A stretch of 33,811 nt of DNA from Sulfurovum sp. (GTDB taxonomy: Bacteria > Campylobacterota > Campylobacteria > Campylobacterales > Sulfurovaceae): the NCBI GenBank assembly GCA_020721085.1, contig DYNJ01000007.1:1-33811 (forward strand). Reading direction: 5' to 3'. Shown one piece after another: positions 18,721 through 24,648 of the stretch. Both the position numbers and the translations under genes were made by a program. The first letter of the stretch is position 1; each line of letters starts with the position of its first letter. Below the pieces are notes generated by a model, which was not told the origin of the DNA, did no database searches, and saw only the letters and a list, made by a program, of their open reading frames with translations.

Positions 18721-19119
18721 GTGATAGGGCAAAAGCCCCATGTGATGCGTTTTTTGATTGTTTGTTTTTTCATTGTGGATTCCTATGATAGTTTATGTAA
18801 TGATACAAACAATCAGTGTCATCCAATGCACCCCTTTAGGGAAGGCAATGAAAGAACACAAAGACTATTTATTGAAGAATTGGCAAAAAATGCTGGATAT
18901 GAACTTAATCTTTCAAATGTAAGTCAAAGTGTTATGATACAAGCGTCAATACAAGGAGTTAAAGGAAATATAAAAGGTTATGAGAACATCATAAAAGTGT
19001 ATTTAAAAAATCAATCAATAAAAATCAAAAGTGAACTAGAGCCTCCTTCTGAGAAACATAACAATAATATGCACCCTTCACCCTCTATTGATCCTTTTAA
19101 AAAGCCTTGGGAGCGATAG
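18721..19119 (+). pseudogene. 5'-truncated Fic-domain protein (C-terminal half) with altered FIC motif
   Basis: MHPFREGNERTQRLFIEELAKNAGYELNLSNVSQSVMIQASIQGVKGNIKGYENIIKVYLK; canonical motif HPFREGNGRTQR reads GNER; N-terminal Fic helices absent. Confidence 0.75.
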
Positions 19120-19132
19120 AAGATTTGTCAAG

Positions 19133-19359
19133 ATGAAAAAGAAAATTGCTATCGAGTATAACAAGGAAACATCTAAAATAACCCTCAATACCTACGATGA
19201 TGGCTTCTTTCTCTTCGAAATAGATATATCCCCGATGCTGTCCTCACTCTAGCCCTTGAAAAGCTATATGATGACTATAACTTAGATCAAGGCGATGAGC
19301 TACATATCACGAAAAAGAAAAGCTTGGGAAATATAACGAAGATTGAGTTGAAAAAGTAA
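19133..19359 (+). pseudogene. Frameshifted small ORF (about 75 aa if repaired), unknown function
   Basis: MKKKIAIEYNKETSKITLNTYDDGFFLFEID... stops at 19252, but a second frame continues YIPDAVLTLALEKLYDDYNLDQGDELHITKKKSLGNITKIELKK* to 19359. Confidence 0.55.
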
Positions 19360-19363
19360 GGAT

Positions 19364-19404
19364 TTTTTAAAAACTTGGTTTTGTGCGTTTGCTACATAAT
19401 ATCG
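19364..19404 (+). repeat. Direct repeat copy A bracketing the NTase cassette
   Basis: tttttaaaaac-ttgg-ttttgtgcgtttgctacataatatcg; 26 bp (19379-19404) identical to 23220-23245, plus matching tttttaaaaac at the same offset. Confidence 0.8.
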
Positions 19405-19842
19405 GAATTAAAGAGGTCTTATGCTGAAAACAAAATCCTCGTTTTAGTCTTGGAGCCGAACGGAATCAATAATTTTTACAAAAATATCCATTCTTTTGAG
19501 TTTGATGGGAAAACTGTTGAATTGGAAAAAACCGTTGTTTTGCTTAATATAAAAAAGGAAAATGTTTACAAACGGCTTGACGAACTTGTTGATATAAGCA
19601 CAACCCCTCTACTGTATGAAAAAGAAAAAAATCGAATAGAAAGAGGTAGGCTTCGTGAACTTATTGAGGAGCTTAAAATTGATGGGTATGCAAATGTTAT
19701 AAGGGATAGATATTTTACAGAAGGATATGTGAAAGACATAGTTAATGCTATTCCCCTTTTGGTGTCTTTTGAGAATTCCAAGAAAAGAGAGATGAATCGC
19801 CTTTTAGGCACTAATAAGCCTAACTCCAAGATATTATTTTGA
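19375..19842 (+). CDS. Hypothetical protein (155 aa); apparent N-terminus lies inside direct repeat A, so the gene may be truncated or chimeric
   Basis: Open frame ending ...SKILF; first residues (MVLCVCYIIS) are encoded by the 26-bp repeat. Confidence 0.4.
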   Translation: MVLCVCYIISELKRSYAENKILVLVLEPNGINNFYKNIHSFEFDGKTVELEKTVVLLNIKKENVYKRLDELVDISTTPLLYEKEKNRIERGRLRELIEELKIDGYANVIRDRYFTEGYVKDIVNAIPLLVSFENSKKREMNRLLGTNKPNSKILF

Positions 19843-19892
19843 ACTTTTATAGAAAAAACGATATTTTATCATAATTAACTAAATATAGTGCT

Positions 19893-19914
19893 ATATAACT
19901 ATAATAAGTTATAT
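19893..19914. promoter_or_regulatory. Inverted repeat upstream of the three-gene operon (possible operator or terminator)
   Basis: atataact-ataata-agttatat, perfect 8-bp arms. Confidence 0.4.
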
Positions 19915-19918
19915 TATC

Positions 19919-19948
19919 TTGACTTTTATTAACAATATTTGCTATAAT
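19919..19948 (+). promoter_or_regulatory. Putative sigma70-type promoter for the DUF6471/NTase operon
   Basis: TTGACT at 19919-19924, 18-nt spacer, TATAAT at 19943-19948, ATG at 19974. Confidence 0.6.
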
Positions 19949-19973
19949 AAATAAAATTATAGAAAGAGTTTAG

Positions 19974-20195
19974 ATGGAATGGAACAGCAAAGCCAAGAGA
20001 CTTATTAAGTCAGAGTTAGCTAAAAGAGAAATTGATTATGTAAAGTTGGCTAAACTGATGAATGATATTGGGGTTGAGGAAAAACAAGTCAATATAGCCA
20101 ATAAGATAAATCGTGGAACATTTAGTTTTGGTTTCGCTTTGCAGGTTTTTAAGGCTATTGGTGTTGAAAATTTAAACATAAAGGATATAACATGA
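19974..20195 (+). CDS. DUF6471-like small protein (73 aa)
   Basis: MEWNSKAKRLIKSELAKREIDYVKLAKLMNDIGVEEKQVNIANKINRGTFSFGFALQVFKAIGVENL; W..KakrliKsEl...id Y..La.lm..iG......NKInRGtFsfgF pattern. Confidence 0.7.
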   Translation: MEWNSKAKRLIKSELAKREIDYVKLAKLMNDIGVEEKQVNIANKINRGTFSFGFALQVFKAIGVENLNIKDIT

Positions 20196-20707
20196 GTATT
20201 CTTGAGCGAATAAATCAAAGAAGGGAAGAGAAAGAAAACCAACTTCTTAAAAACCCTTTATACACCAAAGAGTATAAGCAGTACTATATTACAGGCACGA
20301 GTGCCTTCAATATCCCATATATGGGGACGCAGTGTGATTGGCATCAGATTGATACCCTTAAAGCGGGTAGAGAGGGTAAGTTTGTAATGCATCCGCATGT
20401 CATTGTTGGTGCAGAGGATATCTTTGGAGAGTATGGGATATGGGATTGCAGTAAATGGCTAGAAGGAAGGGGTTTTAAAAAAAATAATTATCTTTGTGCA
20501 ACACCGATTAGAGCCATTCTTGACATACTTTACTATCGGATAGTTATCAAAAAACAGTATCCCCAATCACTTGATGATTTTTGGGACTTTATGTTTGACG
20601 AAGTGGACATAAGTGAATTACATCAGAAGTTGGGCGAGCTAGAATTGAATCTTAGCCATAGTGAAGCTGAAATCCTCAGAAGCTGGAGAAATAAAAATGA
20701 ACTATGA
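20192..20707 (+). CDS. 171-aa protein, putative antitoxin/partner of the NTase toxin
   Basis: ATGA overlap with the upstream gene and 11-nt overlap with the downstream NTase; GTSAFNIPYMGTQCDWHQID and RAILDILYYRI segments; family not securely recognised. Confidence 0.55.
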   Translation: MSILERINQRREEKENQLLKNPLYTKEYKQYYITGTSAFNIPYMGTQCDWHQIDTLKAGREGKFVMHPHVIVGAEDIFGEYGIWDCSKWLEGRGFKKNNYLCATPIRAILDILYYRIVIKKQYPQSLDDFWDFMFDEVDISELHQKLGELELNLSHSEAEILRSWRNKNEL

Positions 20708-21440
20708 CGATAATCAAAAAGAATTACACATTCTTTTTATGAGAGAGATTTTGTTATCCATAAATTCAAGAAATTATCCCACAGTCTTAAAGGGTGGCAC
20801 AGCTCTTCTTCTTTGTTATGAGTTGGATAGATTTAGTGAAGATATTGACCTCGACTCAGAAAAAAGCTTTAATTTGGAGACCGCAATCAAGGATGCTTCT
20901 CGAAAGATAGGCATAACAATTAACAGTATAAACATACCAAAAGATACAGAAACAACAAAGAGATATAAAATTCATTACAATGGGGATATGTATCTAAAAA
21001 TTGAAACATCACTTAGAAACGAAATAAATGATAATGATGTTTCTGTCATAAATGGAATCAAGGTGTATAATCCAGAAATAATTCTTAGCATGAAGATCTC
21101 AGCAATATATGGAGAAAGAGCAAGGACGAAAGCAAGAGATCTTCACGATATTATATTTTTAGCAAAAAAATATATCTCTGTATTCTCGGAGGAACAAATT
21201 GGCAACTTCCTGAGATTATCAGGAGATATCGATAAAATACTTTCATTTGAAGATGATTATAGTGAAGACTTTATTCTGAGGGAACAATTTGAAAATGACA
21301 TTGATGAACTAGAAAAACAAGCACAAAAATTAAAACATTTGAAAGAACAAACGGAAATAAAGTCTATTTTAGAAAAAAATAATAGTGCGCAGACTAAAAA
21401 ATCTAAAAATGACGACCCTCCACAGAGATTTAAACCATAA
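20697..21440 (+). CDS. Nucleotidyltransferase, AbiEii/AbiGii toxin family (module 1)
   Basis: PTVLKGGTALLLCYELDRFSEDIDLD motif and KARDLHDIIFLAKK; start placed at MNYDDNQKELHILF (20697), not the track start 20661. Confidence 0.85.
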   Translation: MNYDDNQKELHILFMREILLSINSRNYPTVLKGGTALLLCYELDRFSEDIDLDSEKSFNLETAIKDASRKIGITINSINIPKDTETTKRYKIHYNGDMYLKIETSLRNEINDNDVSVINGIKVYNPEIILSMKISAIYGERARTKARDLHDIIFLAKKYISVFSEEQIGNFLRLSGDIDKILSFEDDYSEDFILREQFENDIDELEKQAQKLKHLKEQTEIKSILEKNNSAQTKKSKNDDPPQRFKP

Positions 21441-21580: not shown

Positions 21581-21697
21581 TTAGCAAAAATCGCTCAAAG
21601 TACCGTTCTTGACTGCCTGATAGCTCTCTTCGCCTACGAGTTTGCGGATGATCTCAAGCCCAAAACATATAGCAGTTCCAAGGCCGCGGGAAGTCAT
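21581..21697 (-). pseudogene. Duplicated 3' fragment of the DJ-1/PfpI gene
   Basis: Encodes MTSRGLGTAICFGLEIIRKLVGEESYQAVKNGTLSDFC*, versus native MTSRGPGTAICFALEIIRKLVGEESYQAVKSGTLSDFC at 23507-23623; about 91% nucleotide identity by eye. Confidence 0.92.
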
Positions 21698-22605
21698 TTC
21701 TTTAGTTTATTCTTCTTTCGTGCTTCGAAATTTCTAGCCTTTGCCATCTCAGCGGGCATATCCCTATAAATCTTTTGGCACTCCCTCTCAATAAAAATAT
21801 TATGCTCATAAACACACAAATAATCATCAATATTGTCACACTCATTCTCTTTCATTTTTTCTTCCATATAGGTCTGGTAAGAAAAATCCAACAATTCTGG
21901 AGCTAAAAGTAATGTGTCGGCAAAATCATTTTGAAATTTTATAACAGCCTCTTTCATAGCATAATTAGACTGACCATCATCCACGAGTGCGATATCCCAT
22001 CTTCTTGTTATTTTTAGTGCGGTTATCAAACTATCTATATTGTAAACATAGCCTGTGGTCTCCAAAAACTTAAGTTCAAGATCCAATAACATATCTTTTA
22101 AGCTGATAGGCTCCAACTGTTTAAATAGAAAATATATGTCAAATAAATCTTTTATGGTGTCAGTTCTGTCACATAGCGCTTTTAGTTTGTACAGGAGCAT
22201 ATTGTAATGGTTTTCTATCTTTGGAAAATCTTTATGTGATATAAATGTCAAATCCCCAAGTCTGTCAGCTGTAAAGTTCAATAGCTCTATTTTAATGATT
22301 TCATCGCTATCTCCCACATTACAAAATATACGATGTGTGCCATCCTCTGTCTTTATATGTCGAATACTATGTAGATCTTTATTGCCCCCCAAGGCAGTGA
22401 TAATCTTTCTTGAAAGGCTTGCAAACTCTCCCGTTCCCATTTCATAGGGGATAAAGAAATCAAGATCTTCCGACTCACGGTATTTTTCAGGGAGGAGATA
22501 GCATTGAACGGCTGTGCCGCCTGCTAAAAATATCTCGTCTATATTTTGAAGGGTTGTGAGTATAACTTTTTGGTTTTGATAAACCTCATTCCAATTACGC
22601 AACAT
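21694..22605 (-). CDS. Nucleotidyltransferase, AbiEii/AbiGii toxin family (module 2)
   Basis: EIFLAGGTAVQCYLLPEKYRESEDLDFFIP motif and TIKDLFDIYFLFKQ; stop codon lies within the DJ-1 fragment. Confidence 0.82.
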   Translation of the reverse strand: MLRNWNEVYQNQKVILTTLQNIDEIFLAGGTAVQCYLLPEKYRESEDLDFFIPYEMGTGEFASLSRKIITALGGNKDLHSIRHIKTEDGTHRIFCNVGDSDEIIKIELLNFTADRLGDLTFISHKDFPKIENHYNMLLYKLKALCDRTDTIKDLFDIYFLFKQLEPISLKDMLLDLELKFLETTGYVYNIDSLITALKITRRWDIALVDDGQSNYAMKEAVIKFQNDFADTLLLAPELLDFSYQTYMEEKMKENECDNIDDYLCVYEHNIFIERECQKIYRDMPAEMAKARNFEARKKNKLKK

Positions 22606-23089
22606 TCAACCCTCCACCTTTATATATATCTACAACATTTTTCCAAAATATAGCTTTCCTCTCTTCAAAAATGTGCTTTATGGTCGGCAAAAGTTTTTCA
22701 ATAGTTTTGGTAGTGAGAAGCTTTAATATATCTCCGTAAAACAAGTTCTCAAAAAATGGTTTAACAAAGTCAGGATTTCCCTTTTTAACTTCTTTAAGAA
22801 TATAGGTCGGCTCATAGTTCTTCCCCCAAAAAGCAACCTGTATTTCTTTCACCAGCTTATCTGTAATCTCTATATGCGTAACAGGAAGCAGTTTTAATTG
22901 ATGCCTTCTAGGATTTTCAATAAAAGATATTTTTTTGAGTAGTACAAAAGCATAATTGGGTACATTTCCGCTTCTTTTCCATCCCGCTACGGTATCATAG
23001 GGTATTTCGCTTTTCTCGGCAAACTCTTTTTTTGTCATGCCGTGATATTTTAATGCTTTGTCAAAAAGGTAAGCTTTTTCTTTGTTCAT
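22595..23089 (-). CDS. HTH-domain protein, putative antitoxin of module 2
   Basis: KAYLFDKALKYHGMTKKEFAEKSEIPYDTVAGWKRSGNVPNYA is a Cro/CI-like HTH; 11-nt overlap with the NTase start; C-terminal region FENLFYGDILKLLTTKTIEKLLPTI. Confidence 0.75.
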   Translation of the reverse strand: MNKEKAYLFDKALKYHGMTKKEFAEKSEIPYDTVAGWKRSGNVPNYAFVLLKKISFIENPRRHQLKLLPVTHIEITDKLVKEIQVAFWGKNYEPTYILKEVKKGNPDFVKPFFENLFYGDILKLLTTKTIEKLLPTIKHIFEERKAIFWKNVVDIYKGGGLNVA

Positions 23090-23204: not shown

Positions 23205-23245
23205 TTTTTAAAAACATATTTTTGTGCGTTTGCTACATAATATCG
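23205..23245 (+). repeat. Direct repeat copy B bracketing the NTase cassette
   Basis: tttttaaaaac-atat-ttttgtgcgtttgctacataatatcg; same orientation as 19364-19404. Confidence 0.8.
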
Positions 23246-23256
23246 TAAATAATGAT

Positions 23257-23321
23257 CTTTTCCGCTTGAGAGATTTTTGATCTTGACTCTTACAAATGCC
23301 GCGCCTTTGCCAGGCTTGACA
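23257..23321 (-). pseudogene. Exact 65-bp fragment of efp
   Basis: cttttccgcttgagagatttttgatcttgactcttacaaatgccgcgcctttgccaggcttgaca is identical to 24498-24562 in efp. Confidence 0.95.
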
Positions 23322-23506: not shown

Positions 23507-24070
23507 CTAGCAAAAATCGCTCAAAGTACCGCTCTTGACTGCCTGATAGCTCTCTTCGCCTACGAGTTTGCGGATGATCTCAAGCGCGAAGCAGATCGCA
23601 GTCCCCGGGCCACGGGAAGTCATGACCTGACCATCAATCACAACTTTTTGCTTATCTGTATATCCTTCAGATCTTATCTGCTTTTCAACAGACGGATAGC
23701 ATGTATAGTTATGGTTTAATACCCCTGCGACATGCAGCGCATAAGGAGCTGCGCATATAGCGCCTATATACTTGTCATTTGCCTTAAACTCTTTTAGCAG
23801 AGATTGAACTTTTGAATTTTGGGCAAGTCTATTTGTTCCGCCATGTCCGCCCGGTAGAACTATCATGTCATAATCATCCGATATAACGAAATTAATATCA
23901 ATTTGACCTTGTATAATAATACCGTTTGCACCCGTTACAAGATCACTCGCAAACTCATCGCCAAGATAGGCTATATCTACATCTATCCCGCCTCTTCTCA
24001 TTATATCGATAAGATTTACAGCTTCGATCTCCTCAAAACCCTCTGCCAATGGAACAAGAACTTTTGCCAT
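23507..24070 (-). CDS. DJ-1/PfpI (ThiJ) family protein
   Basis: 187 aa; AKVLVPLAEGFEEIEAVNLIDIMRRGGIDV, VLPGGHGGTNRL, GAICAAPYAL nucleophile elbow, VMTSRGPGTAICFALEII. Confidence 0.93.
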   Translation of the reverse strand: MAKVLVPLAEGFEEIEAVNLIDIMRRGGIDVDIAYLGDEFASDLVTGANGIIIQGQIDINFVISDDYDMIVLPGGHGGTNRLAQNSKVQSLLKEFKANDKYIGAICAAPYALHVAGVLNHNYTCYPSVEKQIRSEGYTDKQKVVIDGQVMTSRGPGTAICFALEIIRKLVGEESYQAVKSGTLSDFC

Positions 24071-24081
24071 GATTGCCTCGC

Positions 24082-24648
24082 TTATTTTGCTTTTTCCAGA
24101 TATACGCCTTCAACCGTATCTACCTTGATCATCTCACCTTCGAGTATATGAAACGGCACCTGTACCACAGCGCCGCTCTCAAGAGTTGCCGGCTTTTTGC
24201 CGCCCTGGCTGTCGCCCTTGAAGTTTGGCGGTGTCTCTACGACTTTGAGCACTACAGTTTGCGGAATCTCGACAGAGATCGCCTTGCCGTTGTGAAACAG
24301 TATATCCGCTTCCATGCCATCTATCATGAAACTGAATGTGTCTTCACCCACCTGCACTCTAGTCAAACCTATCTGTTCATAAGACGATGTATCCATAAAC
24401 TGCAAAAACTCTCCGTCATCATAGAGGTACTGCATAGTCTTCTGCTCAAGTGCGGGCACCTCAAATTTATCTCCTGCATGGATTGTCTTTTCGATCACTT
24501 TTCCGCTTGAGAGATTTTTGATCTTGACTCTTACAAATGCCGCGCCTTTGCCAGGCTTGACATGCTGAAACTCTATCACCTTAAAGGGAATACTATCTAC
24601 TTCAAGACGAACACCTTTTTTGATATCACTCATGCCTATTACTGCCAT
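24082..24648 (-). CDS. efp: Translation elongation factor P
   Basis: [46 protein letters not shown]; start placed at MAVIG (24648). Confidence 0.95.

Follow-up and report, generated by a model that had tools for sequence, protein, structure and literature searches.

AbiE type IV toxin-antitoxin systems are bicistronic, a two-domain AbiEi with an N-terminal winged helix-turn-helix (wHTH) being encoded directly upstream of, and overlapping, an AbiEii-family nucleotidyltransferase (NTase) with conserved motifs (PMC3985639). With AbiEi of Streptococcus agalactiae, the C-terminal domain alone neutralises, and repression needs the full-length protein (Dy et al., PMC3985639). The MenT/AbiEii toxins have four NTase motifs in common and modify tRNA in the cases studied (PMC11375011), and JHP933 of Helicobacter pylori, the gene of which is preceded by one for a short AbiEi with homologues in Campylobacter, has been reported as the nearest structural relative of the Mycobacterium tuberculosis NTase toxin TglT (PMC7205606). 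The control proteins of restriction-modification (R-M) systems, which bind their own promoters via a helix-turn-helix (HTH), hold back the toxic gene when the system enters a new host (PMC3874152). The paaR2-paaA2-parE2 operon of a cryptic prophage is headed by a prophage regulator, which represses a divergent prophage operon, and its antitoxin has no DNA-binding motif (PMC8630535).

The locus described here lies in a 33,811-nucleotide stretch of Sulfurovum sp. DNA (contig DYNJ01000007.1; the window). As an earlier note made from the sequence alone had described, three overlapping plus-strand genes at 19974-21440 stand behind one good promoter (Table 1); open reading frames, overlaps and promoter scan agree on this arrangement. 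Genes 1 and 2 overlap by the 4 nt ATGA (20192-20195) and genes 2 and 3 by 11 nt (ATGAACTATGA, 20697-20707), the start of gene 3 being taken as the ATG at 20697, which gives 247 residues, rather than the GTG at 20661 at which the mechanical reading frame opens. The promoter-like site, TTGACT (19919)-18-TATAAT (19948) with an extended TG, has 11 of 12 matches, ranks top among 19 such sites in the region and falls inside DNA that alignment shows to be conserved in three other genomes. The GC content of the operon segment is 0.31-0.38, lower than that of the window as a whole (0.43) or of hemB next to it (0.49), as would be expected of acquired DNA.

Table 1. Features of the operon and its surroundings, with target duplications of related elements
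Feature	Location	Strand	Length	Assignment	Basis
DUF6471 gene (gene 1)	19974-20195	+	73 aa	putative C-protein-like HTH controller, transposon leader gene	PF20075, 1.3e-25
AbiEi-type antitoxin gene (gene 2)	20192-20707	+	171 aa	probable antitoxin; C-terminal domain only, no wHTH	PDLC02280, 4.1e-18
AbiEii-type nucleotidyltransferase gene (gene 3)	20697-21440	+	247 aa	putative toxin, JHP933-type	PF08843, 2.5e-21
Leader DNA of DUF6471 cassette	19861-19973	+		carries extended -10 promoter	identity to L074, L081 and L075; promoter scan
Terminal repeat, IS1595-type	19381-19404	+	24 bp	right-end orientation	exact match to L074 left terminal inverted repeat
Second, identical terminal repeat	23222-23245	+		right end	exact match to L074 left terminal inverted repeat
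Fic-protein cargo remnant	18811-19119	+		C-terminal part, from related element	62.9% amino acid identity to L074 Fic, 6e-37
Remnant of 65-90-aa right-end gene	19132-19359	+		frameshifted, two frames	tblastn to L074 75-aa gene
Target duplication GTTTTGCG	L095		8 bp		
Target duplication CTAATTTG	L096		8 bp		
Target duplication ATAATTTG	L085		8 bp		
Target duplication CAGAAATT	L036/L140		8 bp		
Target duplication ATTTAATC	L078		8 bp	variant repeat	
Target duplication GTTTTTAT	L139		8 bp		

Judged by its sequence, gene 3 encodes an intact JHP933-type AbiEii nucleotidyltransferase, the earlier assignment to the AbiEii type being borne out by Pfam (Table 1) and by the PADLOC model PDLC02307 (4e-55). 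The closest PDB entry is JHP933 itself (4o8s, 3.6e-29), with which it shares the NTase subfamily (32-38% identity in alignment). The GGTALLL...RFSEDIDLD motifs are unbroken, and the family-invariant residues G34, D49, D51, K133, R147, D148 and D151 are all retained.

Gene 2 had been taken for an unrecognised protein and its product for something other than a classical AbiEi. The former view no longer stands, the PADLOC AbiEi model PDLC02280 covering nearly the whole protein (residues 28-170 aligned with positions 8-151 of the model's 153) and PDLC02241, an AbiEi model of greater length, matching its C-terminal part (5.8e-5); the latter is correct in that the wHTH is missing, yet the protein is an AbiEi homologue. 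It has no match in Pfam and none to an HTH family, and the AbiEi match begins only at residue 28. Relatives from Marinobacter and Neptuniibacter, of 231-242 residues and thus about 60-70 residues longer, have the same AbiEi domain fused to HTH_3 (L070, L071) or to a MarR-type wHTH (L037). The AbiEi model matches and these fused relatives together indicate that the 171-residue protein corresponds to the C-terminal domain of AbiEi, the DNA-binding part being absent. A single-sequence AlphaFold model was too poor to use with respect to the fold (pLDDT 41); profile search gave no PDB relative, and no relatives were found in viral and phage collections. As an AbiEi family member, the protein is a probable neutraliser of the NTase, as the earlier note had proposed, and its gene lying directly before that of an AbiEii NTase supports the reading as a variant nucleotidyltransferase toxin-antitoxin pair. 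Because its AbiEi lacks the N-terminal wHTH, we keep the locus out of canonical AbiE, from which it also differs in that a third gene leads the operon, encoding a separate putative HTH protein, and in its transposon context. The JHP933 pair is nearer in having an AbiEi of the wHTH-less family and overlapping genes, but comprises two genes only, and lacks DUF6471 as well as any IS1595 or Tns gene in the 1.5 kb around it.

Whether the three genes belong together as a system was addressed by a survey of the phylum, in which 25 of 398 genomes had a match to the short AbiEi model. Among the 24 short-AbiEi loci with a readable AbiEi reading frame, many, in Helicobacter and Campylobacter, directly precede a JHP933-type NTase, and a DUF6471 gene adjoins at one, the window alone. 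The AbiEi-NTase pair of Helicobacter and Campylobacter stands without DUF6471, and hence the pair as such needs no controller. The co-conserved three-gene order that had been envisaged is rejected both on this count and because close DUF6471 relatives head unrelated modules. The best reading of these comparisons is that the leading DUF6471 gene is probably a property of the transposon and not of the toxin system.

A 333-bp cassette comprising the promoter and the DUF6471 gene (window 19861-20193) is 82-87% identical in L074, L081 and L075, with sharp boundaries at about 19858 and 20185; on one side identity falls off to background level no more than about 30 bp from the DUF6471 stop codon, on the other a short way upstream of the promoter region. 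The module behind the cassette differs in each case: the AbiEi-NTase pair in the window, a 75-residue protein and a Fic protein (PF02661) in L074, a HEPN-like protein (so labelled by inspection, with no Pfam match) and an MNT nucleotidyltransferase in L081, and a 104-residue protein and another AbiEii-like NTase in L075. More distant DUF6471 relatives head N6, N4 or D12 methyltransferase, SIR2 or helicase genes. The junctions after DUF6471 are tight in L081, L076, L077, L078 and L080.

The Pfam match of gene 1 confirms it as DUF6471-like, and structure prediction points to a probable DNA-binding regulator, in line with what the earlier note had suggested. The model, built from 18 sequences, is a four-helix domain (pLDDT 89.6), for which Foldseek ranks the R-M controller C.Esp1396I first among solved structures and places C.BclI and HipB high in the list; probabilities reach 0.98 and TM-scores about 0.6-0.76, with E-values above 0.1 that are not significant, as is expected with a chain of just 73 residues. 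The predicted R-M-controller-like fold agrees with R-M neighbourhoods that were found independently, R-M linkage being absent in the window and present in L076, L077, L079, L080, L090, L095, L127 and L139, and on plasmids L065 and L068; the DUF6471 relatives precede or face the R-M genes. DUF6471 resembles the R-M controllers with respect to predicted fold, size and neighbours of its relatives, but differs from them in that its cargo in the window is a toxin-antitoxin pair, in having no match to the PADLOC control-protein models, and in that no C-box was identified. The AT-rich inverted repeats of the leader are weak and only partly conserved, and no convincing conserved operator was found.

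A transposition gene lies upstream at 21 of the 31 DUF6471 loci in a scan of bacterial genomes (IS1595 11, TnsA 8, IS1 1, TniQ 1), a count that includes a few remnants and L090, in which the transposase is about 3 kb away; the same queries, as an internal control, matched within 1.5 kb at none of 26 AbiEi-model loci. DUF6471 is also found beside TnsA/TnsB of Tn7-like elements. The Campylobacterota copies are often divergent to a C5 methyltransferase alone, and no transposase neighbour was found for the Legionella copies. In a separate DUF6471 group (L005-L015) the gene mostly faces away from one for a C5-cytosine methyltransferase, and no transposase was seen in the 1.5-kb flanks.

The 24-bp terminal repeat (TTGTGCGTTTGCTACATAATATCG) was recognised through its two copies in the window. 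DUF6471 elements between inverted copies of this repeat have perfect 8-bp target duplications (Table 1), 8 bp being the standard length in the IS1595 family (PMC8101967). A search of the 398 genomes by the repeat alone, with a reversed-pattern control that gave 0, yielded 14 bounded elements, eight with perfect duplications; 11 distinct elements have a transposase, one of them being decayed. All 10 non-decayed elements have the same order of terminal repeat, transposase, an opposite-reading gene for 72-94 residues and cargo, the small gene being 134-245 bp from the transposase and reading away from it into the cargo. This slot holds DUF6471 in four elements, HTH_3-like proteins in four and unassigned small proteins in two, and since different HTH proteins fill one position, a DNA-binding function is apparently kept there. 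L139, an intact 7.6-kb element encoding DUF6471, a D12 methyltransferase, an AlwI-type endonuclease, a 138-residue AbiEi about 45% identical to that of the window and a truncated NTase, forms by its gene content the apparent bridge between the intact elements and the window locus.

Two further genes recur in these elements, with Pfam scores below cut-off: one for about 140-150 residues between the left repeat and the transposase in most elements (e.g. L105:6812-7249), and one for 65-90 residues near the right end of IS1595 elements (e.g. L030:2349-2555). L128, L129 and L130 are three copies of one DUF6471 element, with the same predicted genes, at different sites in one genome, which suggests recent activity. 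Passenger genes are known on IS1595 elements, and a 2009 paper by Siguier is said, from its title, to concern them. Tn7-like transposons with defence cargo are also already known (PMC8649781). The DUF6471 elements have in common with described IS1595-family and Tn7-like transposons the DDE_Tnp_IS1595 transposase, terminal inverted repeats, 8-bp duplications and defence cargo, and differ from them in their conserved leader-gene slot. A controller slot common to IS1595 and Tn7-like elements appears to be unreported in the open-access literature searched, most subscription journals lying outside it; that literature has no mention of DUF6471, nor is DUF6471 mentioned in PMC8649781.

The DDE_Tnp_IS1595 transposase present in relatives is absent from the window, where searches for transposase, TnsA/B, IS1 or TniQ pieces gave nothing significant. 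The two terminal repeats, for which the chance expectation is 0, are both right ends, with no left end, and 8-bp duplications are verified in the relatives only; with neither a transposase nor a left-end repeat, the boundaries of the window element cannot be drawn. Upstream of the operon, the Fic remnant, the frameshifted small gene and a right-end repeat follow one another, the DNA from about 18829 being 82% identical to L074; downstream, part of the DJ-1 3' end occurs as a copy, followed by a second NTase pair in convergent orientation and then by the other repeat. The operon looks intact within a decayed transposon cluster.

Several other features of the flanks were observed. The second NTase pair (21694-23089, minus strand) encodes a 303-residue AbiEii-family protein (PF08843, 8e-11) and a 164-residue partner with a weak Cro/C1-type HTH, the two genes overlapping by 11 nt. 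It is flanked by a 116-bp direct repeat (91%) of the DJ-1/PfpI 3' end (21582-21697 and 23508-23623), as if a module had integrated at the 3' end of that gene, and the DJ-1 gene is bracketed by a 65-bp exact direct repeat (23257-23321 and 24498-24562). No empty hemB/DJ-1 site turned up in the genus; in G001, the only same-genus genome in which hemB and DJ-1 were both found on one contig, they are not next to each other. A 155-residue open reading frame without a family match (19375-19842) occupies the position of the transposase in intact elements; the stretch 19405-19860, which includes its region, matched none of the relative loci compared. A broken second AbiEi-NTase junction of 522 bp, 94.4% identical, is present on contig C66 of the same genome (L107:8140-8661), where the NTase is truncated and KGCTALLL replaces KGGTALLL.

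Several explanations of the operon were weighed. DUF6471 and the 171-residue protein might be the halves of a canonical AbiEi that has been split, both needed to neutralise and autoregulate, which would make this an obligatory three-part system. The domain missing from the 171-residue protein is exactly what DUF6471 could supply, relatives have such a domain fused, and the ATGA overlap couples the two genes; yet Pfam does not assign the fused HTHs to DUF6471, the short AbiEi is elsewhere paired with an NTase without DUF6471, and DUF6471 also leads Fic, HEPN-MNT, R-M and other NTase modules, and we consider this explanation unlikely. The divergence of DUF6471 from the transposase in intact elements, and the variety of cargo behind it, would suit a protein that is primarily a transposase repressor, the AbiE pair being transcribed behind it by an accident of insertion and without functional control. 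That too seems improbable, given that DUF6471 is tightly coupled to any cargo behind it, is also found by C5 methyltransferases without a transposase, and has an unbroken reading frame in the window despite the lost transposase. The lost transposase, the Fic and 75-residue protein remnants, the partly duplicated DJ-1 3' end and the broken copy on C66 would accord with an inert fossil, i.e. a decayed transposon whose operon no longer works, but nothing is broken in any of the three reading frames, in their overlaps, in the active site of the NTase or in the promoter, and we regard this as very improbable.

The explanation that we favour, and think likely, is that the operon represents the toxin-antitoxin cargo, with a presumed role in addiction or defence, of a transposon remnant of the IS1595 family that has lost its transposase, under a transposon-owned, C-protein-like DUF6471 controller; our confidence in each structural part is somewhat greater than that in the whole. 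DUF6471 would then be the transposon's small HTH controller, sited beside the divergent transposase, heading any cargo and translationally coupled to it. By binding the leader (Table 1) it would control operon transcription, and perhaps that of the divergent transposase where the element is intact, in a manner likened to the C proteins of R-M systems or to PaaR2. The model carries over to a transposon the logic of those control proteins and of paaR2-paaA2-parE2, in which, likewise, a mobile-element regulator leads a toxin-antitoxin operon, the antitoxin has no DNA-binding motif and a mobile-element gene is divergent, with the differences that the toxin is a ParE, the mobile element is a prophage and not a transposon, and the antitoxin is unrelated. 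Coupled translation would provide antitoxin before toxin; if the operon were lost or disturbed, for instance by a phage, the free NTase may add nucleotides to tRNA or another RNA, and growth would stop.

A broader proposal, which we make tentatively and hold with rather less than even confidence, is that DUF6471 represents a general class of transposon-owned small HTH controllers, encoded where transposition genes meet cargo in elements of the IS1595, Tn7 and IS1 types, that time the expression of cargo dangerous to its own carrier (restriction enzymes and toxins of the NTase, Fic and HEPN kinds), and perhaps that of the transposase, on entry into a new cell. What appeared to be a three-gene toxin system would be read as an AbiE pair plus a transposon regulator. 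If the proposal is correct, a protein family of unknown function would gain a role, and there would be an explanation of how transposons carry and swap dangerous cargo without killing a new host, new toxic modules being able to plug in behind one ready-made safety switch. The DUF6471 slot would then also mark a conserved border, by which new defence and toxin cargo could be located.
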